Shown piece after piece: positions 15,877-37,028 of a DNA stretch of 37,028 nt (the stretch's first letter is position 1; each line of letters begins with the position of its first letter). A program made the position numbers and the translations under genes. Where the stretch lies: the IMG/VR virus record IMGVR_UViG_3300006929_000043, positions 1 to 37,028 of that record, one strand, 5' to 3'. Under the pieces are notes generated by a model. It saw nothing but the letters and a program-made list of their open reading frames with translations. It did no database searches and was not told where the DNA came from. This DNA is from a virus.

Positions 15877-16137
15877 TCACCTATACTCAGACCATGTAAG
15901 TTTAGCCGCCTCATTCATTTCATCCAATACATCGCTGAAAAGTCTTTGTAATTTCTCAATTATCTCTCTAATTTCTTTACTATGTCCTTCTAATTCTTCT
16001 TCACCCATAGGTAGTGTGTCCTTGTATCTTAGAATGGAATCACCTATGTTTGTAAATTCCTTAGTTTTAGTAAATTGCCTATCTTGTTCAAGATATGCGT
16101 CATATTGCACTTTTCTAATCTTATCTTTCCATGTCAT
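15877..16137 (-). CDS. Small helical protein with N-terminal Trp tag
   Basis: This 86-aa protein starts MTWKDKIRKVQYDAYLEQDR, a Trp-tag variant. The rest is helical, with heptad-like segments (EELEGHSKEIREIIEKLQRL) that could form a coiled coil. The ATG at 16137 is preceded by GGTGGTAATTAAT. The neighbour upstream encodes a protein whose C-terminus carries a related Trp motif. The function is unknown; I group it with the putative packaged proteins. Confidence 0.6.
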   Translation of the reverse strand: MTWKDKIRKVQYDAYLEQDRQFTKTKEFTNIGDSILRYKDTLPMGEEELEGHSKEIREIIEKLQRLFSDVLDEMNEAAKLTWSEYR

Positions 16138-16138
16138 A

Positions 16139-16375
16139 TTAATTACCACCTAATCTACTAACTAAATCGTTAATATCATCCCAACTCATCTTAGCGATTG
16201 TGTCGGAATCTGGAACATCACTATGAGATTTAATTGCAGGAACTGGTGAACCCACTGTAACAATACCAGATTTCATCAACATATTGCTCTCATCATAAAC
16301 AGTCTTTTCTATTTTCTTTACTCTACCCACTAATTCTTTTAGCAAGTCTATCATTTCATTATTCTCCTCTGTCAT
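16139..16375 (-). CDS. Small coiled-coil protein with scaffold-like C-terminal Trp motif
   Basis: This 78-aa protein has an N-terminal helix (MIDLLKELVGRVKKIEKTVY) suited to a coiled coil, a Gly/Pro-containing linker and the C-terminal motif KMSWDDINDLVSRLGGN. That motif closely resembles the last residues of the prohead protease-scaffold (KMDWSDINALVEKLEGQL). Here the Trp motif is at the C-terminus and not the N-terminus. This suggests the motif works as a module independent of position and that this protein joins the scaffold core. The ATG follows AAGGAAGTGA. Confidence 0.65.
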   Translation of the reverse strand: MTEENNEMIDLLKELVGRVKKIEKTVYDESNMLMKSGIVTVGSPVPAIKSHSDVPDSDTIAKMSWDDINDLVSRLGGN

Positions 16376-16394
16376 TTTAATTCACTTCCTTTTT

Positions 16395-16667
16395 TTAATC
16401 CCTTACTTCTTTAGGGTCGGACATATCTCTTTTTCCTCTTTCTTCATTAGTTAACTCAATAGGTTGCCTTTTCCTACCTGTATGGGGGTGCTTTCTTCTT
16501 AAATTTCTAGAAGATTGTGTTGCTAATGGCGCATTACTCAATAAACTATGTCTAATCTTTTTATATTCTGCCATGTATTTTTCATCTAACTGTTTCTTGG
16601 CTTCTTGCCATTCTTCCATCCACGCTGTTAATTTATCTTCTGTTTTTAGAATATTTTCCCAACTCAT
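16395..16667 (-). CDS. Small basic protein with N-terminal Trp tag
   Basis: This 90-aa protein begins MSWENILKTEDKLTAWMEEW, continues as a helix and ends in a Lys/Arg/His-rich segment (RNLRRKHPHTGRKRQPIELT). The basic second half could bind DNA inside the capsid. The ATG overlaps the end of the upstream gene by one base and is preceded by AGGTGATGAATA. No known family is recognised. Confidence 0.6.
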   Translation of the reverse strand: MSWENILKTEDKLTAWMEEWQEAKKQLDEKYMAEYKKIRHSLLSNAPLATQSSRNLRRKHPHTGRKRQPIELTNEERGKRDMSDPKEVRD

Positions 16668-17005
16668 TATTCATCACCTAAACTTTTTGCGCTTTTTGGA
16701 TACACTAATTTTCTTAGTTGTTTGTAGAGTTGCTCATACTGCTTACGGAGTTTGCTGGCGGTGGCTACCATATCAACATTCTGTTCGTTAATAGATTTCA
16801 TCTTCTTGGTTAATTTAGAATCGTCTTTCACCAAATCAAGACCTTCCATCATATCAATTAGTTCTCCTAACTTAGTATAATCTTGACCAAAATATTCTGT
16901 AGGTTCAGCCGTCTGCATTGTTTTCTTGAGTTTCTTTTTCTCTTTAGAATCAAGAGCATTGAGGATTTTACTTTCCTCTTTGATTAGCATATCTTCCCAA
17001 GTCAT
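16667..17005 (-). CDS. Small helical protein with N-terminal Trp tag
   Basis: This 112-aa protein starts MTWEDMLIKEESKILNALDS and is almost entirely helical and Lys/Glu/Leu-rich, with long regions (KLTKKMKSINEQNVDMVATA, then SKLRKQYEQLYKQLRKL) that look like coiled coil. The start is preceded by the conserved leader TGCAGGAGAAATTACA. The C-terminus (PKSAKSLGDE) is short and polar. The function is unknown. Confidence 0.6.
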   Translation of the reverse strand: MTWEDMLIKEESKILNALDSKEKKKLKKTMQTAEPTEYFGQDYTKLGELIDMMEGLDLVKDDSKLTKKMKSINEQNVDMVATASKLRKQYEQLYKQLRKLVYPKSAKSLGDE

Positions 17006-17021
17006 TGTAATTTCTCCTGCA
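16997..17021 (-). repeat. Leader-tag repeat, copy 1
   Basis: TGCAGGAGAAATTACA followed by ATGACTTGG. It contains the ribosome binding site (GCAGGAGA) and the first codons of the Trp tag. It is noncoding upstream of the ATG here. Confidence 0.75.
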
Positions 17022-17027
17022 TTTATC

Positions 17028-17321
17028 TTACATATCTCGTAAATCGCTATATTCGGAATAGGCTTTTAGATTGTATAGTTCATCTTCACCATCAATTAAT
17101 TCCATACCGCAACCATTGATTCTTCTATCCCAACCTAATTTATCAAATCGTTCAAGGTTTTCTCTTAAATACATCTGAGCATCTCCTCTAAATCCCCCAA
17201 AGTTAATTCTCTTAGTGCAATAAAATTTATCACCTTGTTTTTTAGTCATTGTGTCTTTTCTCCACGATTTACAAGCAGGACAAAACCCTACCCAATTTTT
17301 AATTATATCTTTCCAATTCAT
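17028..17321 (-). CDS. Small zinc-motif protein with N-terminal Trp tag
   Basis: This 97-aa protein begins MNWKDIIKNWVGFCPACKSW, so a CPAC pair follows the Trp tag almost directly. A further Cys (KFYCTKRINFGG) and a later CGMEL provide enough ligands for one zinc site. The start overlaps the upstream stop as ATGA and is preceded by the conserved leader, here translated as the C-terminus of the upstream protein. It may be a zinc-ribbon cargo protein; no family is recognised. Confidence 0.6.
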   Translation of the reverse strand: MNWKDIIKNWVGFCPACKSWRKDTMTKKQGDKFYCTKRINFGGFRGDAQMYLRENLERFDKLGWDRRINGCGMELIDGEDELYNLKAYSEYSDLRDM

Positions 17322-17337
17322 TGTAATCTCTCCTGCA
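17313..17337 (-). repeat. Leader-tag repeat, copy 2 (translated in upstream gene)
   Basis: TGCAGGAGAGATTACA followed by ATGAATTGG. In the upstream gene the same bases, preceded by A, read ATG CAG GAG AGA TTA CAA TGA and give the C-terminus MQERLQ. Confidence 0.8.
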
Positions 17338-17527
17338 TTTCCAAATAAGGTTTAATGTATTTGTCATGAAAGTTTTCTCTATTGACAAAAGGTTGCATGG
17401 CATCAAGAGCATAGACTAATTTTGTTTTTTGTTCCTGTGTTAATGCTGTTGTGCTTTCTAAATACTTTCTTTGTTGAGTAATAAAATTCATATTATTTTT
17501 GTTTTTCAATATATCTTCCCAACTCAT
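17318..17527 (-). CDS. Small protein with N-terminal Trp tag
   Basis: This 69-aa protein starts MSWEDILKNKNNMNFITQQR, then is helical. Its C-terminal MQERLQ is encoded by the conserved leader of the next gene, which implies that the repeat forms the gene boundary. The ATG lies behind AGGTGATTAAT; a GTG nine bases upstream is part of that site. The function is unknown. Confidence 0.6.
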   Translation of the reverse strand: MSWEDILKNKNNMNFITQQRKYLESTTALTQEQKTKLVYALDAMQPFVNRENFHDKYIKPYLEMQERLQ

Positions 17528-17536
17528 ATTAATCAC

Positions 17537-17827: not shown

Positions 17828-17832
17828 TATAA

Positions 17833-18891
17833 TCACTCCAAAGTTATGCTTCCTTCTCTCATTAATGTAGCAATTAGAGAATCTGCTCTTTCTTCTGCTT
17901 CTTGCTCAGAAGCCTCTTCTGTCTTCTTCTGCTTCCTACCTTCTCTTCTAGTTCTAGACCTATCTACCATAGCAGGATTACGCATTAAATCCTCTAGTTT
18001 TTGTCTACCACCTGCGTTAACTGATTCCCAAACTTCGTGTTTTTTATTTCTTAAAGCACCCATTTGTTCTAATCTAGCAATAGCAACTTTATTCTTTTGA
18101 GAATAGGCTTCAATAATAGCATCCACAAATCTGCCAGTCTTAACACCTTCAATAGTGTTTATTTTAAACGGCTGTTTATTTAAGAGATTATAAACATCTT
18201 TCTGTGCTTCAAATGCTACACTGTCTTTATATTCTTCGGGACTAGTATCCGCTAATCTTCTTAATGTCGATAAGTCTTCTTTACTACTTACAATATTAAA
18301 AATCATATCTTCAGTATCTATATCATAAATCAATTTACCCTCAAAATCAAAATCAACATTTTTTAATTTGGACGCTAATTTATTTAATTCTGTCCTAGCA
18401 ACCTTTAATGATTTAATTCTTTTTTTATCTGGTGAAGGGAATGACGTTGACTTAGGGATGACACTAACAATTAAATCATTTAATTTATCCATTATTGGTT
18501 TTAATGTGGATGGGTCATCTTGGAATAGTTTACTTGATTTTAGACTATCTCTGAAACCTAAAAGGTTGGTATGTCTTACAGTCATATCAAAGGTATTATC
18601 ACTTGGCTCAGAACCTCCTTCGGGAGTATCCTTTCTAGAGGTAACATCATATTGGTTTGTTGATAATCTACCACCCTGAAATAACTCAGGATGATTATCT
18701 CTCAATTTTTTTAGAGAACTAATTAACACTGGGTCAATTTTAACTCCACCCTTTCCAGACTTATATTTATCCATATCATTTAACAAATCATCCCAAGATA
18801 AATCTGCTTTAAGAATATCTTCTAAATAACACTTCAACATAATAAAAGGGTTATCTGTTTTTAGTAGAATTGCTTTTAGAAGTGTTCCCAT
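17833..18891 (-). CDS. Unknown 352-aa protein with internal Trp motif
   Basis: The N-terminal region reads MGTLLKAILLKTDNPFIMLK, and then contains EDILKADLSWDDLLNDMDKY at about residues 22-41, i.e. a Trp-tag-like motif set back from the start. The rest is mixed alpha/beta and helical, with a basic C-terminal part (RSRTRREGRKQKKTEEASEQ) followed by an acidic helix. The start follows GAGGTGATAAT; an internal ATG at 18840 lacks a ribosome binding site. I do not recognise the family. Its place in the small-gene run suggests the same role as the tagged proteins. Confidence 0.6.
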   Translation of the reverse strand: MGTLLKAILLKTDNPFIMLKCYLEDILKADLSWDDLLNDMDKYKSGKGGVKIDPVLISSLKKLRDNHPELFQGGRLSTNQYDVTSRKDTPEGGSEPSDNTFDMTVRHTNLLGFRDSLKSSKLFQDDPSTLKPIMDKLNDLIVSVIPKSTSFPSPDKKRIKSLKVARTELNKLASKLKNVDFDFEGKLIYDIDTEDMIFNIVSSKEDLSTLRRLADTSPEEYKDSVAFEAQKDVYNLLNKQPFKINTIEGVKTGRFVDAIIEAYSQKNKVAIARLEQMGALRNKKHEVWESVNAGGRQKLEDLMRNPAMVDRSRTRREGRKQKKTEEASEQEAEERADSLIATLMREGSITLE

Positions 18892-18900
18892 ATTATCACC

Positions 18901-19122: not shown

Positions 19123-19127
19123 ATTAA

Positions 19128-19406
19128 TCACTCATGTTTCTTTAATTCTGATTTAATCCATGCAAGTTGTTTTGGTGCTGCGTTGTTTATATTTTCTGCC
19201 CATTTTAACAGTTCTTCTAATTCGTGCATTCTTAATCCATTTCGCCTTTTATCGCCTTTTGCCAATAACTTCTGAAAACGCTTACTATTATACGTTATTG
19301 TTTGTTTGAAAACTGCGGGATTACTTATTCTTCCAACAAACCGCATTTTATCAGGCTGCTGGTAAATTGGTTTATCTTTCTTTTTTATCTCATCTTTCCA
19401 ACTCAT
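19128..19406 (-). CDS. Small basic protein with N-terminal Trp tag
   Basis: This 92-aa protein begins MSWKDEIKKKDKPIYQQPDK. A central basic stretch (NSKRFQKLLAKGDKRRNGLR) and a C-terminal helix (AAPKQLAWIKSELKKHE) follow. Its high Lys/Arg content would suit contact with packaged DNA. The ATG has an SD-like GTGATTAAT before it. The function is unknown. Confidence 0.6.
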   Translation of the reverse strand: MSWKDEIKKKDKPIYQQPDKMRFVGRISNPAVFKQTITYNSKRFQKLLAKGDKRRNGLRMHELEELLKWAENINNAAPKQLAWIKSELKKHE

Positions 19407-19411
19407 ATTAA

Positions 19412-19837
19412 TCACTTTTCCATTGCATACTTGCTAGAGAAATCCTCATCGAATTTATCTGTATCTTTCATACCAACGTGTTTATCGTATGCGTCCGTCG
19501 CTGCTTCATATGAGACTATTGCCTCTGCAACTAAATCTTCTATTTCTTCTTTAGTCTTATAAGGCATAACATCATCATTATGATTTAGAAGTTCTTTAGT
19601 TAACCATTCTTTAGTTTGCTTATCCCAAAAAGCAAACTCATATTTTTCATAGTCTTGTGGATTAGATAGTTTAATTCTTGGTTTTGAATAAGCGTATTTA
19701 CCGGCTATAACGCTTAATATTAAATCTGGAGCAACTTCTATTTCTGACAGATAGTTACCATCTTTATCTCTAGGGTCGTCCCTAAAATCAATATCACTAA
19801 ACTTGAATTTCTTTTTTAATATTGTTTCCCAACTCAT
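19412..19837 (-). CDS. Protein with N-terminal Trp tag next to the portal gene
   Basis: This 141-aa protein starts MSWETILKKKFKFSDIDFRD. The central part is alpha/beta with Tyr/Phe-rich stretches (PQDYEKYEFAFWDKQTKEWL) and the C-terminal third is an acidic helix. The gene starts at the last base of the portal gene, behind GGGGTGGAATTTA, so it is coupled to portal translation. The function is unknown. Confidence 0.6.
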   Translation of the reverse strand: MSWETILKKKFKFSDIDFRDDPRDKDGNYLSEIEVAPDLILSVIAGKYAYSKPRIKLSNPQDYEKYEFAFWDKQTKEWLTKELLNHNDDVMPYKTKEEIEDLVAEAIVSYEAATDAYDKHVGMKDTDKFDEDFSSKYAMEK

Positions 19838-21492
19838 TAAATTCCACCCCTTTCAGTTCTTCTATCGACATTATTATTGGCTGCATCTTTAGGTAAACCC
19901 TTAGCCCGATTAGGTGGCCCTACACTCATCTTAGGTTTAGGACTTGCGGCCTTTACTTCAGCGGGTTTACCTGCTTCTGCCATAGTGGGTTTAGTACCTG
20001 CTTCCATCATTTGACCCATTTGAGATTGGTCAATATCAGTTCCAGCATAAGGGTCTATTTCAAATTCATCTTCCCCTTTTTCCCCACCTTCTGCTTCAGG
20101 TTGTGGTTCTGGTTTAGAATAAATGAACTTACCATGTTCATCCATATCTACTTCAAACCCAAGATTCTTAATCTGCCCAGCGATATTAACTTCAATTTCT
20201 CTTTTACGCATAGTAGCGATTTCATCCTCTTCTTCAGATGGTGGTAATATCATTTCCCAATCAGTAATGCCGAATTGCTTAACTAAGAATGGGAACACAT
20301 ACTTATTCCAAACATTTTGGGCCATTTCTACTGCCCTATTAGTAACAAGTATTTGCATACCTTCATTGTTTAATCCCCCACTAGTAGAATTATCCGCCAT
20401 GAAGATTTTACTTACACCGTAGAAAGCAGCAACTCTATCCCTCAAATCTTCTTTAACTGAAATATAATCCATTTCTTTTAATGAATCCATGAACTTAACC
20501 CACTCGACTGAACCCCTACCGTTCTCAGCCTCTATTCCCATAACAGGAATGAAATGAGCATCTTGCTCCATCTTTTCTTTTACTCCTCTCCAGAAAGTTT
20601 TCATTGATTCTATGTTTCGAGTCTGAACTGCTAATAATCCTTTAGGCATTCTAGCCTTAGTATATGCTTGATTGATATAATTCTCCATAGCAATTAAAGT
20701 GGTTAAATGATTCCACATTGTAATTACTGGACTAGTTCCATATAATCTACTTGGGGAATATTTACTGAAATGTAACACTTCCCCTTTAATGAAATTCTGC
20801 TCTACACCATGCGCTCTATTAGTATAATGAACTGGATACATATCTCCCCCACATTCTCCACACCTTTCATGAGGTTCGGTTACAGTTATATCTCTATGAT
20901 GAATACAAGTGAATGAGTTTCCACCTTTATTACCTTCCTCATCACAAACTATAGCCATACTAACTGGGTCTGCTCTAAACATTTGTTTGATTTTATGCGC
21001 CCTAATATTACCATTGCCATCAATAAAGTATTCTTTAACTAATACTAAATAGGCGTCATCCATAATATTTAGGTCATCTTCTAATTCTTTTAGGACATCA
21101 ATAAACATCTGCTCGGCATCGTTAGCATACTCGCAATGTAAAAACGAATCTGCGTATTTTTTCTGAGCAGGATTTGGTCTTCTTAGATTAGTAGATTGAC
21201 AGTCAGCACAAGTTTCTGTGACTTCCTCATGTTCTTTACCACAGTCTTCACATTTTACAGCAAATTTGGGCTTCCACTGATACCCTCGTCTAAATATTTC
21301 ATTTTTTAATTGGGTAATACAAGTTCTTAGGATAACTGAACTAGAGGCTATATGATACACAATAGGCCCAGTCATTGCTAAAGGGTGATGTTGTTCTTGA
21401 ATACCCATTTGATAAACTTCTCTGTCCATAGGAACAGGGGTTGATTTTCTAAAGAAACTAGTTAGGGAAAATCTCCTCTTTTCTTCTGGCAT
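19837..21492 (-). CDS. Portal protein with two zinc-ribbon-like motifs
   Basis: This 551-aa protein has the length and sequence character of phage portals, the dodecamer ring through which DNA enters the capsid. Typical portal segments include GEVLHFSKYSPSRLYGTSPV, MWNHLTTLIAMENYINQAYT and AFYGVSKIFMADNSTSGGLN. Two Cys-rich insertions are unusual: CEDCGKEHEEVTETCADC (81-98), and C196 with H198/H199 paired with CGEC (211-214). Both could bind zinc. The C-terminal 90 residues are Pro/Glu/Ala-rich and probably disordered. Terminase and the homing endonuclease lie upstream, as expected for terL-portal order. The start follows GGTAGTGGTATA. Confidence 0.85.
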   Translation of the reverse strand: MPEEKRRFSLTSFFRKSTPVPMDREVYQMGIQEQHHPLAMTGPIVYHIASSSVILRTCITQLKNEIFRRGYQWKPKFAVKCEDCGKEHEEVTETCADCQSTNLRRPNPAQKKYADSFLHCEYANDAEQMFIDVLKELEDDLNIMDDAYLVLVKEYFIDGNGNIRAHKIKQMFRADPVSMAIVCDEEGNKGGNSFTCIHHRDITVTEPHERCGECGGDMYPVHYTNRAHGVEQNFIKGEVLHFSKYSPSRLYGTSPVITMWNHLTTLIAMENYINQAYTKARMPKGLLAVQTRNIESMKTFWRGVKEKMEQDAHFIPVMGIEAENGRGSVEWVKFMDSLKEMDYISVKEDLRDRVAAFYGVSKIFMADNSTSGGLNNEGMQILVTNRAVEMAQNVWNKYVFPFLVKQFGITDWEMILPPSEEEDEIATMRKREIEVNIAGQIKNLGFEVDMDEHGKFIYSKPEPQPEAEGGEKGEDEFEIDPYAGTDIDQSQMGQMMEAGTKPTMAEAGKPAEVKAASPKPKMSVGPPNRAKGLPKDAANNNVDRRTERGGI

Positions 21493-22823
21493 TATACCAC
21501 TACCCCTCGTTCTAATTCATCCATAACACTCATTTTATTATTCCCCTTATATTTAGCGATGTTCTCTACATCAATATCATCTTTAGAAAAGTCGTAATTA
21601 ACATGGTCGGCGTGATTAGCCCACTTCATTAATTTAAACAACTCAGCCATTCTAGATTTAGCCCAAGGTTGCTTCTTATGATTCTTTTTTATTCTAATTA
21701 ACTCAGTTAGAATATCGGCATTATCACCCTTCATTCTAAAATATGGGCGGCACTTACTTAATAATTTAGTAATATCTCCTTGCGAGTAAAAATTTAATCT
21801 TTGTACGGCTCTAGTAGCCTGTGGGGATTTTTGGTCAAGGTGTAGTTTACCACAACCTAACTCCTTATGCAATTCAGTAACGAATGCTTTACCCCTATTA
21901 CCTGTAGCGATGATACCAATTCTAGGATTAAAGTTTCTATCCATAGTAATATACCCATCTGAATCAATAAAAGCAGCAGTATAAGCATGTAAATCTTTCT
22001 TGATTTCCATAGGTAATTTATAATATTCCCCATCTATATTACTAATACTCATCTTATCTGCAACTTTACAAATTATTTGTGGAGAAGCCCTTCTATGTAA
22101 TTTACTTGGTAATCTATCATATATTTGTCTAGCCGATATACCTTGATTTTCACAAACTGATTTCAGTACAAAATCATCTAGTTGCTTAGAGATACTGTTT
22201 TTAATAACTTGACTAGGAATTGCAGATACTATTTTTCTAAATTCTCTTTTAGAATTAGTCATAGTCTTACTAAGAGAAGAATAATCAGAATTATAATTAT
22301 GCCCTCGGTGTAAATCTGCTTCCCAAAATTTACACAAAGATTCTATGACTTGCCTTCTAGTCTTGGAATCCTTAATGGAATGTATTTTCTTCAAATCAGA
22401 CTCAGTATATCTCATCTGTCTAAGTGGAGTTTCATAAGGGGCTAACCAATAGATTGATTTTATACAGTCAGTTAAATGATTACCATAGGCTACAATTAAA
22501 TCGTCTATGCCTTTTGAAAAAGTAATCTTATCTTCTCCTTTCAAAGTGCGCCTATGTTTCTTTAAGTCTTTAACAATATCAGGTATTTTCTTATCTGATA
22601 TTTTATACTCTTTCGGGAAAGTATCTAGTTGAGATTTAGCCTCAGTAACATTAATGTTAAATTTCTTTGAAACACTCATTGCGGCTTCATAATCACTCAT
22701 TATAGGTTGAGTAGATATCCATTTTTGGGCATTCATCTCTTGGAGAAGTTCTTCTTCTTCATCCTTTAAATCAGCAAGTGTTCTAAGTTTCTCACCTTCT
22801 TCACTCTTAGAAATTAAGTCCAA
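21492..22823 (-). CDS. LAGLIDADG homing endonuclease
   Basis: The C-terminal 170 residues contain one LAGLIDADG-type motif (AYTAAFIDSDGYITMDRN), with the Asp pair used for metal-dependent cleavage. Strands (RIGIIATGNRGKAF) and the helix-loop KELGCGKLHLDQKSP follow, as in this fold. A single motif implies a homodimer cutting a near-palindromic site. Upstream, a winged-helix-like stretch (VCENQGISARQIYDRLPSKL) may assist DNA binding. The earliest ATG frame overlaps terminase and encodes unlikely sequence. I favour TTG at 22823, behind GGGGGTGG at the terminase end; ATG at 22736 is an alternative. The gene sits between terminase and portal as a free-standing endonuclease; I see no intron or intein in either neighbour. 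Confidence 0.8.
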   Translation of the reverse strand: MDLISKSEEGEKLRTLADLKDEEEELLQEMNAQKWISTQPIMSDYEAAMSVSKKFNINVTEAKSQLDTFPKEYKISDKKIPDIVKDLKKHRRTLKGEDKITFSKGIDDLIVAYGNHLTDCIKSIYWLAPYETPLRQMRYTESDLKKIHSIKDSKTRRQVIESLCKFWEADLHRGHNYNSDYSSLSKTMTNSKREFRKIVSAIPSQVIKNSISKQLDDFVLKSVCENQGISARQIYDRLPSKLHRRASPQIICKVADKMSISNIDGEYYKLPMEIKKDLHAYTAAFIDSDGYITMDRNFNPRIGIIATGNRGKAFVTELHKELGCGKLHLDQKSPQATRAVQRLNFYSQGDITKLLSKCRPYFRMKGDNADILTELIRIKKNHKKQPWAKSRMAELFKLMKWANHADHVNYDFSKDDIDVENIAKYKGNNKMSVMDELERGVVV

Positions 22824-24255
22824 ACATTCCACCCCCGATACTTTGTGCCTGTGGCTGCTTGTTATCAAATATTTCCATATCATCCAACAAAACAATAGCC
22901 TCCAACATATCATGGGTAGCAGAATTGGCTAAGGCCAGTCCCATTACCAAGTCATCGTGTGCGCCCACACCTTCAAACTTTCCTGTGTCAGTGATACTAA
23001 ACATAGATAATTCCTCTACAATGTTATCAGTCACCGAGCGAGATTCATCATTACCTCTAGGAAAAATAATTTTGGTGTTTTCTATATTCATTTGTAGATT
23101 AAGAATGATTTCTTCTTTCTTTCTACGAGTCATAGTAACATCTCTAATATTCAAATCAGTCTCATTACGCAACTCTTGAGTGAAAGATTTAGCAAAGGTA
23201 TTTGTTTCAAAATAAATTACATCAGGTTCAAACAATTTAGCAATCATTTTTATCTTGTTTATGTTATCTCTAAACTCTACATTCTTCTGCCTATCTACAT
23301 AGATGATTCTTTTATTCCTCTGCTCATCTACCTCCAACACCATAATAACATTGTAGTCACCATCAGTAGAGATAGCAGGGTCAACACCAACATAATAATT
23401 GTAACCAGATTCTTTTCTATGTCTCAATCTTAGAACATCTTTCTTACCAGCGACTTTACAGGCATCAATATGTTCTTGACCAAATAGAGCAGTACCAGTA
23501 GATATAGGAATACATAGATATTCTCTTGTGAATTTAAGTGAACCAACTTCCGCCTTTCTTTGCATTAAAGAATCATAATCCCATCTAGATGGCCATAACG
23601 GTTCATTGTTCTGATTGAGACATGGGTAATTTCTAACAGTATAAACTCCAGTATATTCTTCACTAGCCAACAGAGCAAATATATCAGTGTAGGTAAAAGG
23701 AGTACCAATCATTCTAAGGGTGGCAGTATGGTGAAGAGTAGGAATCATATCTCCAAAAAACCAATCAGTTACTTTCTTGATAGCGGTTAAACTGAACTCC
23801 TTTAGAGGGTCATCAATAATAATCTCTTGAGGGTGAAGTCCACGAATCTGTGAACCAACTGACCTCTCAAGAATGGAATTACCATTTGTTAAAGTTATAT
23901 TACCTACTGCCCAGCCCCTTGAAGGTCTAAAGTGAGCAATAGTCTCATTGTTAAACATCTTATCTATTTCTCTCATGTGAACCATAGTTTGTTTATGGTT
24001 AGAAGAAATGTATAACATTTGATATGGGGCTGGCTGGAAACATAATTGCCATACCGCCCAAGAATGCATAAACACAGATTTACCGTGGTCACGGCTACAA
24101 ATAACCACTGTTCGATTTGTGCCTTGCATAAGTTCTAACCACTCTTGATGGAAAGAGGTGAATTCAAACCCTAAAACTTCAGTAAAGAAATATGGAAAGG
24201 ATGTCTTAGACATCTCCAAATCCATTTGTCTACTAAAGTTCAAATCGTCTAACAT
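22807..24255 (-). CDS. terL: Terminase large subunit
   Basis: This 482-aa protein is the packaging motor ATPase and nuclease. Walker A is CSRDHGKS (53-60), Walker B is EIIIDDP (144-150), and the coupling motif MIGTPF lies at 182-187. The C-terminal RNase-H-like nuclease has VGVDPAISTDG with D292, YFETNTF with E350, and AHDDLVMGLALA with D434/D435, so the catalytic acids appear complete. It follows the unknown tagged protein at 24260..24793 by 4 nt and precedes the endonuclease and portal genes. The last residues overlap the proposed start of the endonuclease. Length and motif spacing are normal for the family. Confidence 0.93.
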   Translation of the reverse strand: MLDDLNFSRQMDLEMSKTSFPYFFTEVLGFEFTSFHQEWLELMQGTNRTVVICSRDHGKSVFMHSWAVWQLCFQPAPYQMLYISSNHKQTMVHMREIDKMFNNETIAHFRPSRGWAVGNITLTNGNSILERSVGSQIRGLHPQEIIIDDPLKEFSLTAIKKVTDWFFGDMIPTLHHTATLRMIGTPFTYTDIFALLASEEYTGVYTVRNYPCLNQNNEPLWPSRWDYDSLMQRKAEVGSLKFTREYLCIPISTGTALFGQEHIDACKVAGKKDVLRLRHRKESGYNYYVGVDPAISTDGDYNVIMVLEVDEQRNKRIIYVDRQKNVEFRDNINKIKMIAKLFEPDVIYFETNTFAKSFTQELRNETDLNIRDVTMTRRKKEEIILNLQMNIENTKIIFPRGNDESRSVTDNIVEELSMFSITDTGKFEGVGAHDDLVMGLALANSATHDMLEAIVLLDDMEIFDNKQPQAQSIGGGMFGLNF

Positions 24256-24259: not shown

Positions 24260-24793
24260 TCATATCCTTAGACTATTAAACCATTTAGTAACATCCCAAG
24301 TTGTGCCATAATGTTGCCTAAAGTGTTCTAACACTTCATCAGGAATAACTTCGTGTTCAGATGGAGCGATATCTCCAGTCATGTATTGTTTACCTTGAGC
24401 GGTATAACCTGCTATAGTTGGAATTGATGGTTTCTTATCTATAGCCTTATCTCTAGCCGTTCTTCCATATTTCTTTCCATCAACAGAACTTTTAGTTCCA
24501 CCCTTATATGCAAACTTTTTACCATCCTTTCCTTCTCTAACTGAGAACCCACTAATAGCAACTAATCTATATTTACCATCTTGTTCTATAATTACCCCAA
24601 ACCAATTATCAACTGGATAATTAGCAGTACTATCTTTTTGACTTCTAAGAGTATGAGGGGAGTCTGGGTTACTAGCGTCCCACATTTCCTTTACTTTGGA
24701 TTCATCACTACCTAAGCCTATTACTTTCTTTGGTTCCTTTCCTGATAATCTTCTAAGTTCAGGGTGAAATTTTAAAGTATTAAACCAATCCAT
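24260..24793 (-). CDS. Unknown 177-aa protein with Trp motifs at both ends
   Basis: I place the start at the ATG at 24793, behind AGGTGATTAC and 4 nt after the upstream stop. The longer frame would overlap the upstream gene and lacks support. The protein begins MDWFNTLKFHPELRRLSGKE, a Trp-tag variant, and ends TTWDVTKWFNSLRI, which mirrors the start (WFNTLK versus WFNSLR). The middle has alpha/beta segments (NWFGVIIEQDGKYRLVAISG) and a basic loop (KKYGRTARDKAIDKK) that faintly recalls GNAT acetyltransferases; this is too weak for an assignment. It lies directly before terminase. Confidence 0.6.
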   Translation of the reverse strand: MDWFNTLKFHPELRRLSGKEPKKVIGLGSDESKVKEMWDASNPDSPHTLRSQKDSTANYPVDNWFGVIIEQDGKYRLVAISGFSVREGKDGKKFAYKGGTKSSVDGKKYGRTARDKAIDKKPSIPTIAGYTAQGKQYMTGDIAPSEHEVIPDEVLEHFRQHYGTTWDVTKWFNSLRI

Positions 24794-27295: not shown

Positions 27296-29398
27296 TTAAG
27301 CCACCCGTAGTAATCCACCTTTAGTTAGTATAGAATATATATTATGTTTACCTTTATCACTTTGCTTCCAATAAAAATCAGTGTTGGCCGCTAAGTCCAT
27401 TAAGTTCTCCTTTAGGTCTTTAATTATAGATGCTCTGGTATTATCTATGTTTTTCCTAAATGCTCCACTAAACTCTAAAATCTCATCTTTATAAGGTGGT
27501 GGATTAGCAGTAAAATCAAAAGTTTCACCCTTCTTTGGTGCGCCTATCTTTCTAGCCAAAACGGATAACTGCTCCTCAGTTTTATATTCTTGGTCTGCTG
27601 AAATTAAAACATTAAATAAATTAGAAATATTACCTATTTCCCCCTTTTTATATTCGCCACTTAAAACATCGGATAGACTTTCACCACGACTTAATCCCAT
27701 ATAGGTTATCTCAGCAATATCTCTGTCAAACTCACTGGGAAATGCACTCTCATTAAAGTCTATTTGTGATTCACTAAATTGAGTCTGGAATTGTTTATCA
27801 CTTTCCCCATACTGTTCTTGTAATTCATCCCTCAACTCAGAAATTTCTTCTCCTGTTATGGATTTAGATAAAGATAATAGTCGCCTAACCTTTTCTAATT
27901 TTTCAGATGAAGGTAGAGAATACACATCTACTCCTTCTAAACCTCTTTTAGATTCCTTAGAGTATTTTTTAAACGATGATAATACAGCAGGTTTATCAAA
28001 ACCACCTTTACCTTGTAAGTCATCTATTAATGATATTATCTCCCCATCGGCTTCACTTGTTAAAGACTCATCTCTCAATAAATCACTTAATAACTCATAT
28101 TGACTCTCACTAATAGATTGGTTAACACTCACTGTTAACCTCTTTTTAGTTCTATCATAAGTATCTTTTAAATCTCCAGATTTAAGAGCAGAAACAATCT
28201 TAGGCATCCACTCTTGTTTATTTGGTTTTACTTCCCTACCTAACTCAGGTAAATGATATTCATGAGTATCGTCATAGTTCTCTGTTGATACATCCCAAAC
28301 TATGTTAGCGTAATTTTGTAACACACCTTTACCTAAACCCTTTTTCTGTTTTAAGTAGGAAATGAAATCATCAGCAAAAGTGCCTTGTTCTACACTAGAA
28401 GTAAAATCTTCGTCTAATAATTCTATTAAACTATAATGAATATATTTATCTCTCTGTTTCATATTCTTGATACTAGTGGGAATTATATCTTTAGGAAATA
28501 ATTTTGGAGATTCTTTAATCTTACTTAGTAAGTATCTAGCCTTCTCTGGAGTAAACGGCTCTACTAATTCATATTTAGTAGAAGATAATTCTTCTTCTTG
28601 TAATTCTGTAATCATACCAAATACACTAACAATGGGTAAAGGGCTAGTTGAAAATCTACCTGTAGTCATACTAGATACCTTCTCTTTCAATTTATCTAAC
28701 TTATCTATTGGATACCTAGCCAACACCCAAGTTTTACCTTCTTTGTTAAATCCTAGAGAGGATAAATCAGTATCAGTAGTAATAGCAATTCTTCTCAAAT
28801 CAGTTAAACCTAATTCTCTAAGTATGGGTCTAATCTTTCTACCGTAATTAGCGACTAAATACTTACTAAACTTCTTTCTATTTTGTGAATCTTTAAATCT
28901 CTCATTAAGATAATTAATAGTTTCTTCAGGGTTTGACTCATCTAGATTAGATAAAACTGAGTCTAGGAATTCTTCTGATAACTCAGTATTTTTCCTATAT
29001 CCAGTTCTTGTGCTTTTTCCTTTCTTTCTATTACTTTCTAGAATCGGTAAAACTTTCTCAACCATTAGTTTAACTCTAGCCTTAATCGCAGTAGGAGTAG
29101 TAACATGTGGCATACTACCTTCACCAGCATATAGGATTTTAATCTCCCTCATTTTTTTCCAAGCCCTTTCATCAGAACTCCAATCTTTTAGAACGTCAAT
29201 TGTAGCAGATATACCTTTATTACCATAATCTCCACTTTCAATATCCTTGATGAACTTATTAGTTAAAGCATCTGTAGTTAACAAGGAGGCCCACTTACCA
29301 CCATCTTCGGCAGGTAAAACACTAGCCTTTGAAATTATACTAGTGTTGGGAAAACTAGTTCTTCTAAGAACATTAACCCAGTGTGGAATTGAACTCAT
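27296..29398 (-). CDS. Very large unknown protein (700 aa) with Trp-tag-like start
   Basis: The start at 29398 is supported by the same leader (GTGCAGGAGAGATTACA) that precedes the tagged small genes; upstream in-frame starts are not. The protein begins MSSIPHWVNVLRRTSFPNTS, with HWVNVLRR resembling the Trp tag. The rest is helical and charged (for example LEKVRRLLSLSKSITGEEIS), with no enzyme motifs I can see. A basic stretch near 130 (RKKGKSTRTGYRKN) may bind nucleic acid. It ends 3 nt before the 831-aa protein gene. If the tag hypothesis is right, this would be a large cargo protein. Confidence 0.7.
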   Translation of the reverse strand: MSSIPHWVNVLRRTSFPNTSIISKASVLPAEDGGKWASLLTTDALTNKFIKDIESGDYGNKGISATIDVLKDWSSDERAWKKMREIKILYAGEGSMPHVTTPTAIKARVKLMVEKVLPILESNRKKGKSTRTGYRKNTELSEEFLDSVLSNLDESNPEETINYLNERFKDSQNRKKFSKYLVANYGRKIRPILRELGLTDLRRIAITTDTDLSSLGFNKEGKTWVLARYPIDKLDKLKEKVSSMTTGRFSTSPLPIVSVFGMITELQEEELSSTKYELVEPFTPEKARYLLSKIKESPKLFPKDIIPTSIKNMKQRDKYIHYSLIELLDEDFTSSVEQGTFADDFISYLKQKKGLGKGVLQNYANIVWDVSTENYDDTHEYHLPELGREVKPNKQEWMPKIVSALKSGDLKDTYDRTKKRLTVSVNQSISESQYELLSDLLRDESLTSEADGEIISLIDDLQGKGGFDKPAVLSSFKKYSKESKRGLEGVDVYSLPSSEKLEKVRRLLSLSKSITGEEISELRDELQEQYGESDKQFQTQFSESQIDFNESAFPSEFDRDIAEITYMGLSRGESLSDVLSGEYKKGEIGNISNLFNVLISADQEYKTEEQLSVLARKIGAPKKGETFDFTANPPPYKDEILEFSGAFRKNIDNTRASIIKDLKENLMDLAANTDFYWKQSDKGKHNIYSILTKGGLLRVA

Positions 29399-29414
29399 TG
29401 TAATCTCTCCTGCA
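29390..29414 (-). repeat. Leader-tag repeat, copy 3
   Basis: TGCAGGAGAGATTACA followed by ATGAGTTCA. The leader is perfectly conserved, but the start codons encode MSS and the Trp motif comes a few residues later. Confidence 0.75.
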
Positions 29415-29415
29415 C

Positions 29416-29634
29416 TTATAGTTCCCAACCCATAGTTCCGAAATCATCTAATCCCTTTACAAACATTCTAATTGAATCATATTGTTTAGATTTTTTATCA
29501 TAATCTATTGCTTTCCATTGATTATACATATGCCTTAGAGCCTTAGCCTCATCAGTATCTTTTTTAATATACTCTCTTAAATTACGCAAATTAATTTCAG
29601 TAGCGTCATGTTTGATAACAGTTTTCCAACTCAT
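29416..29634 (-). CDS. Small protein with N-terminal Trp tag (72 aa)
   Basis: The protein starts MSWKTVIKHDATEINLRNLR, followed by a basic helical region (KALRHMYNQWKAIDYDKKSK) and a short end (DDFGTMGWEL). The leader TGCAGGAGAGATTAAA precedes the ATG. The next gene's leader begins directly at its TAA stop. The function is unknown. Confidence 0.6.
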   Translation of the reverse strand: MSWKTVIKHDATEINLRNLREYIKKDTDEAKALRHMYNQWKAIDYDKKSKQYDSIRMFVKGLDDFGTMGWEL

Positions 29635-30397: not shown

Positions 30398-30872
30398 TAG
30401 GCTGTGGCTTTGATTTTAAATAATTAATGGCTTCGGCTAAAGAAGAATGCTCATTAGAGTCCTCTAATGGCATCCCGCCTTCTTTTATGTCCTCATTGAT
30501 ATAATATGAAAAATAGGTATAGTCAATATCTAAAAGGTCTAACCCTTCATCTTTGTATTTATCAAGAAGATATTTATCAAGTTCATCTTCTATTTGTTCA
30601 GGATTAATATAATTTCCTTCAACTAACCATTCAGCGTTCCAATCTAAATCTCCATCGTCCTCTTCTTGAGCAGAAACATCATATATAGGTTCTTTTGATT
30701 CTTCTTTCTCTAAGAGAACTGTAATAGTAATATCCAATCTTTGGTCTTCGCTTCCACCGTCGTTGCCGTAAAACCACTTCCCTCCCCGCCTGTCACTCGG
30801 CCTCATATATACTCCATCATAGACATATTCTAATCTATCATCGTCATTTTTTAATATATCTTTCCAACTCAT
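30393..30872 (-). CDS. Acidic protein with N-terminal Trp tag, paralog of 33900..34292
   Basis: This 159-aa protein begins MSWKDILKNDDDRLEYVYDG and is strongly acidic. It shares an order of motifs with the protein at 33900..34292: a strand region with EPI, NPEQIEDELDKYLLDK (the other has SPEQLQAEIERHV), a Tyr-rich part, and a final helix SSLAEAINYLKS (the other has NSIAEAIKEIES). The two are probably diverged paralogs, both tagged. The function is unknown. Confidence 0.6.
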   Translation of the reverse strand: MSWKDILKNDDDRLEYVYDGVYMRPSDRRGGKWFYGNDGGSEDQRLDITITVLLEKEESKEPIYDVSAQEEDDGDLDWNAEWLVEGNYINPEQIEDELDKYLLDKYKDEGLDLLDIDYTYFSYYINEDIKEGGMPLEDSNEHSSLAEAINYLKSKPQPN

Positions 30873-30888
30873 TGTAATTCCTCCTGCA
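30864..30888 (-). repeat. Leader-tag repeat, copy 7
   Basis: TGCAGGAGGAATTACA followed by ATGAGTTGG. It begins directly at the TAA stop of the upstream gene (TAAATGCAGG) and is otherwise noncoding. Confidence 0.75.
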
Positions 30889-30889
30889 T

Positions 30890-31243
30890 TTACAAATCAA
30901 ATATACTCGGTTGGTTAGGGTCTATATTCGGTCTTTGTTTAGGTTTCTTTAGACGAGACAATGGCTCTTTTCTTTTTCTTTTAAGAGGAGGTTGTTCATT
31001 AAAGAATTTTTCAAAAGCAACAATATCTAAAAATCTCTCATAGTTGTTTTCATCTAAATCTTCGGGTTTAATCTCCCCGAAGTTTGTAAGGTCGGCTAAT
31101 TCATGAGACTGTTCATAAATAATAGCCTTTCCACTTTCTTGGCCCACTCTTTTATTGCTCATATTTTTAATTTCTTCTTTTCTTTTGTCAATATCCTGTC
31201 TAACCTTTTCGGAATATCCTTTCAATATATCTTGCCAACTCAT
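30890..31243 (-). CDS. Protein with N-terminal Trp tag and basic Pro-rich end (117 aa)
   Basis: The protein starts MSWQDILKGYSEKVRQDIDK. Its last third is Lys/Arg/Pro-rich (PLKRKRKEPLSRLKKPKQRP) and it ends NQPSIFDL. The basic tail could bind DNA. The terminal QPSIF resembles the Q-x-[S/D]-[L/I]-F sliding-clamp binding motif, but this may be chance. It overlaps the upstream small-terminase-like gene by 4 nt (ATGA). The function is unknown. Confidence 0.6.
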   Translation of the reverse strand: MSWQDILKGYSEKVRQDIDKRKEEIKNMSNKRVGQESGKAIIYEQSHELADLTNFGEIKPEDLDENNYERFLDIVAFEKFFNEQPPLKRKRKEPLSRLKKPKQRPNIDPNQPSIFDL

Positions 31244-31902: not shown

Positions 31903-31906
31903 TCAA

Positions 31907-33580: not shown

Positions 33581-33585
33581 CTTAA

Positions 33586-33882
33586 TCACCTTGTAAATGC
33601 ACTTCTTGCTTTAGACTTTGGTAGTTCATCATAATGGTAGAGTTTAACACTGTTATCATTATGAGGATTTTCAGTCATTAAAGAACCATCTGGCATCTTG
33701 TGAGTTTTACCAGTCCACTCTTTGCCATCCTTAGTGTAATGTTTTCTATCGGGACTTTTTTTAGCGGATTCTACTTCTTCTACGGTTTGTAGAGCATCAA
33801 CCATTGGTTCTTCTGTATCACCATCACCATCTAAATCTGGATAGTCTGGCCTTTGATTTTTTAATATTTCTTTCCAACTCAT
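33586..33882 (-). CDS. Small protein with Trp tag and DxDxDG loop (98 aa)
   Basis: The protein starts MSWKEILKNQRPDYPDLDGD. The DLDGDGDTEEPM segment resembles a calcium-binding EF-hand or dockerin loop. The later block HYTKDGKEWTGKTHKMPDGS is a motif I recall from many small marine-phage proteins. The leader is CGCAGGAGAAATTACA. The function is unknown, but the shared phage motif supports a virus-specific role. Confidence 0.65.
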   Translation of the reverse strand: MSWKEILKNQRPDYPDLDGDGDTEEPMVDALQTVEEVESAKKSPDRKHYTKDGKEWTGKTHKMPDGSLMTENPHNDNSVKLYHYDELPKSKARSAFTR

Positions 33883-33898
33883 TGTAATTTCTCCTGCG
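33874..33898 (-). repeat. Leader-tag repeat, copy 9
   Basis: CGCAGGAGAAATTACA followed by ATGAGTTGG. The first base differs from the consensus; the core is intact. It lies directly behind the TAA stop of the upstream gene. Confidence 0.75.
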
Positions 33899-33899
33899 C

Positions 33900-34292: not shown

Positions 34293-34308
34293 TGTAATCT
34301 CTCCTTAA
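34284..34308 (-). repeat. Leader-tag repeat, copy 10 (variant)
   Basis: TTAAGGAGAGATTACA followed by ATGAGTTGG. The GCAGGAG core is reduced to AAGGAG, while GAGATTACA and the tag codons are conserved. Confidence 0.65.
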
Positions 34309-34998: not shown

Positions 34999-35040
34999 AA
35001 TATAGGCTCCGCTTTTTTAATCGTAGCCACTACCCGTTTA

Positions 35041-35060
35041 TTTGATTTCCCTTAATCAAA
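35041..35060 (-). other. Hairpin at the end of the HMG-CoA-lyase-like gene
   Basis: On the coding strand TTTGATT, AAGGGA and AATCAAA form a perfect 7-bp stem with a 6-nt loop. The stem contains the TGA stop codon. No T-run follows it, so it is at best a weak terminator or an RNA-end stabilising hairpin. The next 42 bases before the upcoming start hold nothing I recognise. Confidence 0.35.
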
Positions 35061-35922
35061 CTATAAGTTCAGGAGGTAAATCCTCATAATGATTTTTCTT
35101 ATTTAGTAACCAACTAGTGACTGATAATAAGTCATTTAACTCTATTCCAGTCTCATATCCTCTATTATTGGCCCAATGAATCAAAGCATTTGTTGATAAA
35201 TTACTACCACTATTCGGAATAAAGGGACATCCACCCAATCCAGCAATACTAGCATCAAAATTAGTTACACCCCAATCCGCAGCCGCTCCCACATTACCAA
35301 ATATAGAATTACCACCTATTTTTCGCTCATGAAGGTGTAAAGCCACCTCTGCCTCTATACCTTTAGTCAATTGTAGAGTCTGTAACATTTTTGTTGGGTG
35401 CGCTGCCCCAATTGTGTCGCATAATACGACAGTTCCGGCAATTTCATCGGCTTTTTTGATAGCATCTAGCAATTTATGCTCTTTAGGTGAACCTTGAATG
35501 GGACAACCAAACGCACAAGACAAATATGCCCTAATATTCTCCTTATTTTCGTCCTCCAACATGTATTTTTGTTCCGCAAACACATCTTCTAACCCCTTTC
35601 CGAGATTTCTCATGTTAAATTCGTCCGAATGAGAGAAAAATATATTGAATTTCTTAGCACCAACGGCTTTAGCCCTATCCAGCCCTCTAGAATTAGGAAT
35701 TAATACATCAAAATCACCCAAATGTCGAGTAGATTCAAATATTTCTTCCGCATCTGCCATATTTGGAACTTTTTTAGGGTTAACAAAAGACGCAATCTCT
35801 ATATTTTTAAGGCCAGCATGGTATAATTCATCAACCATACGAGTTTTTTCTTCCGTAGTTAAACTAAATTTACTATTTTGCAATCCATCTCTTGGCCCTA
35901 CTTCATATATGTTTAAATCCAT
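35056..35922 (-). CDS. HMG-CoA-lyase-like enzyme (HMGL family TIM barrel)
   Basis: This 288-aa protein matches the HMG-CoA lyase family along its whole length. It has IYEVGPRDGLQN (R11, D12), GLKNIEIASFVNPKKVPNMA (E42), AYLSCAFGCPIQG, VLCDTIGAAHP (D169), the metal-binding pair LHLH (H196, H198), and AGLGGCPF with the catalytic-loop Cys (C232) followed by N241. HMG-CoA lyase splits HMG-CoA into acetyl-CoA and acetoacetate. Two places differ from the usual enzyme: HLHERKIGG replaces HCHDTYG, and Asn245 stands where human E279 is. The substrate may therefore differ. ATG at 35922 is preceded by GTGGTGAGG; the upstream GTG is part of that site. It is an auxiliary metabolic gene amid virion-type genes. 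Confidence 0.85.
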   Translation of the reverse strand: MDLNIYEVGPRDGLQNSKFSLTTEEKTRMVDELYHAGLKNIEIASFVNPKKVPNMADAEEIFESTRHLGDFDVLIPNSRGLDRAKAVGAKKFNIFFSHSDEFNMRNLGKGLEDVFAEQKYMLEDENKENIRAYLSCAFGCPIQGSPKEHKLLDAIKKADEIAGTVVLCDTIGAAHPTKMLQTLQLTKGIEAEVALHLHERKIGGNSIFGNVGAAADWGVTNFDASIAGLGGCPFIPNSGSNLSTNALIHWANNRGYETGIELNDLLSVTSWLLNKKNHYEDLPPELIV

Positions 35923-35924
35923 CC

Positions 35925-36239
35925 TCACCACTTCACTTTATTAGCCCAATAAGCAGCAGATAGTTTACCCCGTTTTATATTTTTAGCATGTCTAGCCTTA
36001 AATGACCGTTGTTTCTTCGCTCTTGCTCCTTTCGGGTTACTCTCAGTAACAGTCTTTGCACCTTGTTCCCCAAATCGAATCAATTTAGTCGTATTACCTT
36101 CCTTCGCCATAACAATATGAGACTTTTTAGAATGATTGGGAGTCCTTTTAGGCTTATTGAATCCACTAATATTCAACCTTTTCATAGTTGCTCTCGCTCT
36201 ACTATGGTCTGCTGCCTTCAAGGTATCTTCCCACGTCAT
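35925..36239 (-). CDS. Small basic protein with Trp tag, marine phage family (104 aa)
   Basis: The protein starts MTWEDTLKAADHSRARATMK and is strongly basic. The C-terminal half (KKQRSFKARHAKNIKRGKLS, ending AAYWANKVKW) closely resembles a short protein common in marine phages, which I recall as DUF6321; I could not verify the label. The N-terminal tag appears to be added to that domain. Its high positive charge suits DNA contact in the capsid. It overlaps the next gene upstream by one base. Confidence 0.7.
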   Translation of the reverse strand: MTWEDTLKAADHSRARATMKRLNISGFNKPKRTPNHSKKSHIVMAKEGNTTKLIRFGEQGAKTVTESNPKGARAKKQRSFKARHAKNIKRGKLSAAYWANKVKW

Positions 36240-36640
36240 TATTGTTCACCTCTCTCTTGATTTTCTTTAGACCTTTTATCGTCTTTAATTGGGCCACCCT
36301 TAGCCCACGTATAACAAGTTCTCGCTGAATGACATTTGAAATGGTGCATCCAACAATAACCTAATTGACCATCATCATCTAATTCTAAAGGCATACAATC
36401 CTCCATTCTAGGAGAAATATCAAATGCAACACAATTACTACAATTAGATTTTTTAGCAACCTCAGCAGTAGTGTTCCATCTTTCTGCATACCTTTCCCAA
36501 TAATCCTCATCTTCTAAGTTTAAAGGACCATATTGAATATGTTCGGCCTTAACCGCACTATCTCTGTTTTTAGTATTCAATTCTAAATCTTGTGTTGCTC
36601 TAGGACAACTCATTTCTTTCAGAATAATTTTCCAACTCAT
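36239..36640 (-). CDS. Cys-rich protein with Trp tag, marine phage family (133 aa)
   Basis: The protein starts MSWKIILKEMSCPRATQDLE. It has many Cys/His residues: CSNCVAF, MEDCMP, YCWMHHFKCHSARTCYTW. These could bind an iron-sulphur cluster or zinc. The order CPRATQDLELN, then YGPLN, CxxC, and CWMHHFKCHSARTC is known to me from proteins of cyanophages and other marine phages whose function is not established. It lies between two other tagged proteins with phage-family domains, with ATGA-type overlaps on the left side. The function is unknown. Confidence 0.7.
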   Translation of the reverse strand: MSWKIILKEMSCPRATQDLELNTKNRDSAVKAEHIQYGPLNLEDEDYWERYAERWNTTAEVAKKSNCSNCVAFDISPRMEDCMPLELDDDGQLGYCWMHHFKCHSARTCYTWAKGGPIKDDKRSKENQERGEQ

Positions 36641-37028
36641 GCACCTTTCCTCCTTTTGTAAGTCTTACAAGCGGCACAAGTTGGGCGACACCTCTGTTTA
36701 GTCCCTTTAGATGCATCCTTTCTCCCACAAGGTTTAGTGCCTTCCTTATCATCTTCACAAGATTGACAAGAAACCCAACCTTTCTGTCCATCTCCACCCC
36801 TTCGTGAAAACCAACCATGCAATCCTTCTTTCTTCTCTCTAGAAAAATTATCTCCACCCTTGACAGTATCCTCCCAAGACTTCTTAGCAGACTCTCCCCA
36901 TTTAGAAGCACCAACTTTTCTACATTGAACCAACGCACCACTAGCGTAAGCAGAAGGCCACTTCTTATAGCGACTCTTTACCTTATGATAACAGGCATCT
37001 TTTTCGCCCTTTAATACATCCATCCAAT
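36637..37028 (-). CDS. Phage family protein with Trp tag, start cut by window edge
   Basis: The visible frame reads [N/D]-W-M-D-V-L-K-G-E-K-D, so the true start codon lies just beyond the window and the protein carries the Trp tag (M-[N/D]-WMDVLK). CYHKVKSRYKKWPSAYASGA, then LVQCRKVGASKWGESAKK, is a conserved marine-phage domain (I recall DUF5872; unverified). A second tag-like motif, KKSWEDTVKGGDN, occurs near residue 50. The C-terminal part is Cys-rich (CQSC, CGRKDA, CRPTCAAC) and ends in a basic tail, YKRRKGA. The gene overlaps the next one by 4 nt. Confidence 0.75.
   Translation of the reverse strand, partial: WMDVLKGEKDACYHKVKSRYKKWPSAYASGALVQCRKVGASKWGESAKKSWEDTVKGGDNFSREKKEGLHGWFSRRGGDGQKGWVSCQSCEDDKEGTKPCGRKDASKGTKQRCRPTCAACKTYKRRKGA

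Follow-up and report, generated by a model that had tools for sequence, protein, structure and literature searches.

A short tryptophan tag on unrelated late proteins of magrovirus-like archaeal viruses and its likeness to the scaffold end: a candidate head-loading signal

In lambda (gpC/Nu3) and in herpesviruses (UL26/UL26.5), the scaffold is fused to the protease and attaches to coat by a short helical element at its C-terminus. The C-terminal helices of the phage P22 scaffold gp8 also bind coat, and deletion of 11 C-terminal residues abolishes binding (PMC9965877). For phage T4, the ten N-terminal residues of the capsid-targeting sequence (CTS) suffice for loading of internal proteins into the core, with residues 4 and 7 dominating the targeting (PMC9026906), and for SPN3US it has been suggested that N-terminal propeptides target several head proteins and that a C-terminal propeptide targets the protease into the prohead (PMC7411985). 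Here we describe an eight-residue tag, M-[STND]-W-x-x-[IVT]-[LI]-K, in IMG/VR virus record IMGVR_UViG_3300006929_000043, of which positions 1 to 37,028 (the window) were analysed. The tag stands mostly at the N-terminus of otherwise unrelated late proteins and resembles the C-terminal end of the protease-scaffold encoded beside the major capsid protein (MCP). We consider it likely that the tag is a portable head-loading (capsid-targeting) signal that docks in the manner of the scaffold's C-terminal helix, and that the cargo is probably delivered to the host.

The - strand of the window carries 20 open reading frames (ORFs), spread over 15877 to 36640, whose third residue is Trp within the tag context. 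A 21st ORF (27296-29428) carries a shifted variant, MSSIPHWVNVLRR, with its real start near 29398 and the same GCAGGAGAGATTACA ribosome-binding site upstream, so that the 22 tagged proteins counted in a preliminary description become 20 or 21. Trp at residue 3 in 20 of the 53 window genes has a binomial P of 1.4e-23 at a Trp frequency of 1.4%. Tagged genes made up 20/32 in 15.8-37 kb and 0/21 in 0-15.8 kb, the half encoding MCP and tail (Fisher P = 1.3e-6). Information content of the tagged N-termini lay between 2.2 and 4.3 bits over residues 1-8 and fell to ~1 bit (background) beyond residue 8, bearing out the earlier statement that conservation is confined to the first 8-10 residues. Several of the 12 block genes without Trp at residue 3 have the motif elsewhere, either as a C-terminal tail (16139-16375) or internally (17833-18891, LSWDDLL; 31907-33589, KKSWYDGLW; 36637-37023, KKSWEDTVK). 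Clearly motif-free genes of the block include those for the portal, the terminase, a helix-turn-helix protein and an HMG-CoA-lyase-like enzyme.

The bodies behind the tag are unrelated. After residue 12, no two of the window's tagged proteins were significantly similar (best BLAST E = 0.02; no phmmer match), and a Pfam scan of these bodies gave no family above its cut-off. Among the fetched loci, 813 distinct tagged proteins formed 421 body clusters, 304 of them singletons, with bodies spanning 39 to 840 aa, and in alignments of 100 and 61 representatives essentially only the tag columns were conserved. Searches of 161 representatives against Pfam, and of 100 of those against PHROGs and PADLOC, gave almost no matches that would indicate function. 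The bodies include zinc-ribbon-like, very basic and GNAT-like proteins, the last represented by the 24260 protein with a weak fold match (best E = 0.005) from a model with a predicted local distance difference test (pLDDT) score of 66. Homologues of the window's tagged bodies were tagged in 120 of 149 cases, including 24/24 for 36239-36640. The 35925 body occurs without a tag in Roseobacter phages, cyanophages and HMO-2011, and in KBS-S-2A the untagged form sits between minor-head and coat genes; in locus L010 the 33586 body is fused to the 16667-17005 body with a single tag for both. The untagged bacterial-phage body and the one tag on fused bodies indicate that the tag is an add-on. Some bodies do form families across viruses, as would be expected if all tagged proteins belonged to one expanded family with bodies diverged beyond recognition; however, the lack of similarity in the window, the 421 clusters, the wide size range, the untagged body in unrelated bacterial phages and the terminus swap described below led us to reject a paralogue family, which we regard as practically untenable. 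The preliminary description had argued against it from the conservation of the first 8-10 residues alone on so many partners.

The tag is conserved as protein, not as DNA. Across relatives, MSWEDILK was encoded by 23 different 24-mers and MSWKDILK by 26, and because so many codon sets write identical peptides, selection must act on the tag protein. A DNA or RNA element, such as a translation enhancer or a cassette recombination joint, would fit the partial conservation of ribosome-binding sites with the tag, GCAGGAG being present in 8.5% of tagged versus 0.2% of untagged genes and a terminal ATTACA in 14% versus 0.3%. Codon diversity and the existence of C-terminal and internal copies without a start codon stand against such an element, which was rejected and has very little probability left. 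An extended ribosome-binding context, AATGCAGGAGRRATTACA-ATG, was common to many tagged genes and rare elsewhere (for example window 16997-17020, 30864-30887 and 33874-33897); it may favour recombination between cassettes.

The position of the tag is not restricted to one terminus. In the 31907-33589 family, the tag is N-terminal in at least five members (loci L190, L239, L209, L207 and L185) and lies within the last 8-12 residues of 21 members (for example KKSWNEILKVN* and KKSWQDILRW*, the asterisk marking the stop); about 12 more, missed by the regular expression, were found by inspection to carry a degenerate C-terminal copy such as KKSWVEHLWR*. The window member has KIKKSWYDGLWGQ at the family's C-terminal-tag position; the domain fused behind it is encoded in L239 by a tagged gene of its own. 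The 24260 family shows the same swap, homologues without an N-terminal tag carrying a C-terminal or internal copy. Such a swap is expected of a docking peptide and is not expected of a paralogue family or a translation signal. In a further case a reusable domain, DGYYWGSRGPFKTRKKAVQVAQAAYASGYV, is followed by KKSWxDILK and then by differing sequence (L212:10094-10558, L218:902-1462 and L148:589-1278), which is an internal form of the tag.

A close counterpart of the tag was found at the end of the scaffold. The protease gene, adjoining that for MCP, runs on into a long-helix scaffold, whose last ~18 residues contain [MVL]-[SDT]-W-x-[DEQ]-[ILV]-[HN] or a close variant in 80/80 relatives. In a 32-sequence alignment few residues of the scaffold half are invariant, Trp413 being one of them, and residues 413-426 were modelled as a helix (pLDDT ~73-81); the rest of the model is mostly of low confidence (protease half mostly pLDDT <50), so that only the helical scaffold and tail are usable, with moderate confidence. 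The extreme C-terminus of the scaffold is thus a conserved, predicted helical peptide, sharing [M]-[S/D]-W-x-[D]-[I] with the tag. The same type of tail ends another, small protein (16139-16375 in the window, with counterparts in relatives ~4-5 kb upstream of MCP), and in ~0.94 million residues a regular expression for the tail matched hardly anything outside these two protein groups.

Since the protease has the motif at its own C-terminus, and since the propeptides of T4 and SPN3US serve for targeting and also undergo cleavage (PMC9026906, PMC7411985), the tag might be only a recognition or cleavage site for the prohead protease. We consider this very improbable, as neither a conserved residue nor an enriched cleavage-like pattern follows residue 8 and merely a few residues follow the C-terminal copies. 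Cleavage in addition to targeting is possible.

To determine how the tag is distributed, DNA was scanned with a degenerate tag pattern, using the reversed pattern as control. A search of related viral genomes with counts per genome had been put forward in the preliminary description as a check, and tags were far above the control: the 26 MCP-related contigs gave 268 matches versus 5, with 25 of them carrying 4-20, and near-complete relatives had 3-20 tags each versus 0-1, on the late strand and upstream of MCP. In the sole tagless contig, MCP lies ~3 kb from the contig start, and the absence is explained by the missing upstream block. When IMG/VR was scanned from the tag alone, 34 of 46 long contigs encoded the window's MCP family, including all 20 longer than 80 kb, which together held 238 matches versus 5 in the control. 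Eight of the 12 contigs without MCP carry 6-12 matches and are probably fragments of tagged viruses; the other four (G034, G040, G049 and G055) carry one match each and were treated as chance or unrelated viruses. One MCP-containing record, IMGVR_UViG_3300021958_000021 (G033, 184733 bp), contains a pair of MCP genes from this family, separated by ~91 kb, together with two tag sets, and is probably two related viral genomes joined in assembly. Across 12 near-complete contigs, 133 of 138 tags lay <=45 kb upstream of MCP on the same strand.

The tag is specific to this lineage. Only 4 scattered matches were found in 13 comparison phages, haloviruses and T4 (~1.1 Mb), and the haloarchaeal viruses HCTV-1 and HVTV-1 (Druskaviridae), despite related MCPs, had neither the scaffold tail peptide nor tags. 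The exact tag DNA pattern gave 8 single scattered matches in 257 Gb of cellular genomes, and because it is nearly absent there, a signal addressed to a host factor (degron, membrane) is disfavoured.

The MCP had 452 relatives among the IMG/VR candidates, and among named phages it matched only archaeal tailed viruses, namely Druskaviridae (HCTV-1, HVTV-1, ~25%) and viruses assigned to methanogenic lineages. Contigs with a related MCP are often ~90 kb and a B-family polymerase (PolB) was present in 17/17 long ones, often in two pieces. Magrovirus MCPs have been grouped with Druskaviridae MCPs (PMC8651126), and magroviruses are believed to rank with the most abundant groups of viruses in the sea (PMC10160649). 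The features of HK97-like tailed archaeal viruses of the magrovirus group are thus present, with a Druskaviridae-related MCP, S78 protease, terminase large subunit and portal in the window, and PolB and the ~90 kb genome size assessed in its relatives. From the MCP matches, the contigs with PolB and the published MCP grouping, we infer that the window comes from a magrovirus-like virus whose hosts are Marine Group II archaea.

The genomic position of the tags also bears on their destination. As the motif, judged by its residues, is a short hydrophobic helix, the tag might address a different viral hub such as a membrane site, virus factory, tail or replication complex. This appears quite improbable: the tail half of the window is without tags, tags lie on the late strand opposite PolB in the compared contigs, and among conserved hub proteins the motif is confined to the protease-scaffold and the small protein with the like tail. 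For a membrane anchor in particular, residues beyond position 8 lack amphipathic conservation.

For loading into the head, the following model is proposed. The signal, with the consensus [M/K]-[S/T/N/D]-W-x-[D/E/N]-[I/V]-[L/I]-K in magrovirus-like archaeal viruses, would probably form a helix of one to two turns that presents Trp, Ile and Leu on the same side. Its probable docking site is the one used by the protease-scaffold's C-terminal helix (M-[SD]-W-x-D-I-[HN]-x-L-V), which may be the inner face of the prohead coat or the scaffold core. One copy on any polypeptide, in most cases N-terminal but in others C-terminal or within a linker, would bring it into the head during assembly, along with protease and scaffold. 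Some 10-20 late proteins specific to the lineage would be loaded in this way and probably delivered to the host archaeon with the genome. The binding partner, the presence and copy number of the cargo in virions, any cleavage and the ejection step are predictions of this model. The fuller version, in which the scaffold's own coat-binding peptide is reused as an address label in a terminus-independent, virus-wide loading code, so that eight codons would make any gene cargo and each virion would carry 10-20 effectors from hundreds of uncharacterised families into a marine archaeon, is favoured with somewhat less assurance.

Several observations weigh against head loading by scaffold mimicry. Tail and tag agree at five or six positions and the next two differ (H/N-x versus L/I-K). 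With a tag matrix, certain other C-termini equalled the tails in score (1.4% reached the tail median), although most of the top-scoring ones are C-terminal tags themselves. Sequence search gave no solved relative of the protease-scaffold, and the T4-type L/I-x-E site was not enriched after the tag ([LI].E in 37% near the tag versus 46% in a control stretch). A related alternative is that the tag brings transient factors to the scaffold core, portal or terminase for head assembly, and that these factors leave before maturation, with no delivery to the host. The motif is common to the protease-scaffold, which is normally transient, and the tagged block surrounds the terminase, portal and protease genes, both consistent with such factors; the 421 largely lineage-specific clusters with fast turnover, however, resemble accessory or effector cargo instead of conserved assembly factors, and we consider this alternative unlikely. 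The preliminary description had proposed a sorting signal on unrelated partners similar to the T4 CTS. That remains the best-supported reading given the scaffold-end peptide, the family-wide occurrence and the N-to-C swap, and its restriction to the N-terminus was too narrow.

The features of the window are collected in Table 1; essentially all genes lie on the - strand.

Table 1. Tagged, motif-bearing and landmark genes of the window.
Position	Strand	Feature	Basis or relatives
1422-3014		Tail protein	PHROG and Pfam matches
10516..11880	-	HK97-fold MCP	PHROG and Pfam matches
11895..13178	-	Prohead protease (Peptidase_S78 by PHROG and Pfam matches), continuing C-terminally as a helical scaffold with the end SKMDWSDINALVEKLEGQL	
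15877..16137	-	Tagged MTWKDKIRK, 86 aa	
16139..16375	-	Untagged small protein, 78 aa, C-terminal tail IAKMSWDDINDLVSRLGGN like that of protease-scaffold	Same tail in counterpart of many relatives
16395..16667	-	Tagged MSWENILK, 90 aa	
16667..17005	-	Tagged MTWEDMLI, 112 aa; commonest tagged body in relatives	68 homologues, 51 tagged
17028..17321	-	Tagged MNWKDIIK, 97 aa, Cys-containing	
17318..17527	-	Tagged MSWEDILK, 69 aa	
17537..17827	-	Tagged MSWQDTIK, 96 aa	
17833..18891	-	Late protein, 352 aa, internal motif-like LSWDDLL near residue 31	
19128..19406	-	Tagged MSWKDEIK, 92 aa	
19412..19837	-	Tagged MSWETILK, 141 aa, acidic	
19837..21492	-	Portal, untagged	PHROG and Pfam matches
22807..24255	-	Terminase large subunit, untagged	PHROG and Pfam matches
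24260..24793	-	Tagged MDWFNTLK, 177 aa, weak GNAT-like fold	
27296..29398	-	Large protein, tag variant MSSIPHWVNVLRR	Homologue in L239 begins MHWTEVLKK
29416..29634	-	Tagged MSWKTVIK, 72 aa	
29651..30103	-	Tagged MNWEDILK, 150 aa	
30100..30381	-	Tagged MSWEKMLK, 93 aa	
30393..30872	-	Tagged MSWKDILK, 159 aa, net charge -26	
30890..31243	-	Tagged MSWQDILK, 117 aa	
31907..33589	-	Late protein, internal KIKKSWYDGLWGQ ending conserved body, then fused domain	Relatives tagged N- or C-terminally
33586..33882	-	Tagged MSWKEILK, 98 aa	
33900..34292	-	Tagged MSWKEILK, 130 aa	
34305..34649	-	Tagged SWKEILK, GTG start, 114 aa	
34765..34998	-	Tagged MDWITQIK, 77 aa, four Cys	9/9 homologues tagged
35925..36239	-	Tagged MTWEDTLK, 104 aa, net charge +22	Body also in untagged bacterial marine phage proteins
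36239..36640	-	Tagged MSWKIILK, 133 aa, seven Cys	24/24 homologues tagged
36637..37023	-	DUF5872-like, internal KKSWEDTVKGG	Tagged homologues in relatives (MSWEDILKRNKGG, MSWEETLKAKKK)

Other genes of the window were also annotated. Between the cargo block and the protease, a conserved untagged protein (13191-15671, -) contains an ATP-dependent DNA ligase domain (PF01068, E = 7.8e-29), and this protein adjoins the protease in most relatives. A Ras/Arf-like small GTPase (7425-8102, -; PF00071 above cut-off) lies in the head-tail cluster beside small probable membrane proteins, and the tandem paralogues 8735-9052 and 9074-9406 (-; MAGIGGCRSSGAIS and MTGIGGCRSTGAFT) downstream of MCP are possibly decoration proteins. 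Within the cargo block, the untagged HMG-CoA lyase-like enzyme (35056-35931, -) matched PF00682 (E = 6e-26), with the closest NCBIfam subfamily below cut-off, and is a possible auxiliary metabolic gene. An HNH-type endonuclease ORF (21492-22913, -; phrog_5046) overlaps the terminase end and precedes the portal, and is likely a homing element.

Most magrovirus genes lack annotation. Should the tag prove to be a head-loading signal, the late block, now almost blank, would become a predicted catalogue of virion cargo read from eight residues, and the viruses would provide an archaeal case of multi-protein delivery comparable with the T4 internal proteins. It would also offer a testable route by which scaffold peptides are taken over for protein sorting, and HK97-type capsids could be programmed with a small tag of natural origin. 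No description of a tag of this kind came out of full-text searches of the open-access literature, in agreement with what had been supposed initially. What is new is probably a form of capsid targeting that is independent of terminus, occurs on hundreds of bodies and is tied to the scaffold end.

Encapsulin cargo-loading peptides are likewise short, portable and terminal, and load unrelated cargo into an HK97-fold shell. They are mostly C-terminal and serve few cargoes, with no virus head, scaffold or genome; encapsulin shell operons lack portal and terminase, whereas the window has portal, terminase and tail genes. The propeptides of the SPN3US/phiKZ type differ in length, several having 100+ residues compared to ~8 for the tag, which resembles the protease-scaffold end. 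The T4 CTS of IPI, IPII, IPIII and Alt is similar in being a very short N-terminal peptide common to otherwise unrelated small proteins, and its key residues are an aromatic and, three residues later, a hydrophobic one (Y4, F7; PMC9026906). T4 TYQEFI aligns conservatively with SWQDIL, ranking 2-3 of 85 T4 N-termini in similarity to the tag, yet 0.7% of internal T4 6-mers score equally, and the sequence resemblance is no more than suggestive. The tag differs from the T4 CTS in its invariant Trp, in hundreds of body families versus about four per phage for T4, and in the likeness of the motif to the scaffold C-terminus. Because C-terminal and internal copies and the N/C swap depart from a strict N-terminal position, and no gp21-type L/I-x-E site directly follows the tag, the best reading is that the tag works like a T4 CTS and is not a member of that class. 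With respect to P22, a like peptide occurs here naturally on dozens of unrelated proteins, whereas P22 cargo-scaffold fusions are engineered. A model combining the T4 and P22 precedents, in which cargo would carry copies or mimics of the scaffold's terminal peptide, appears the most economical.

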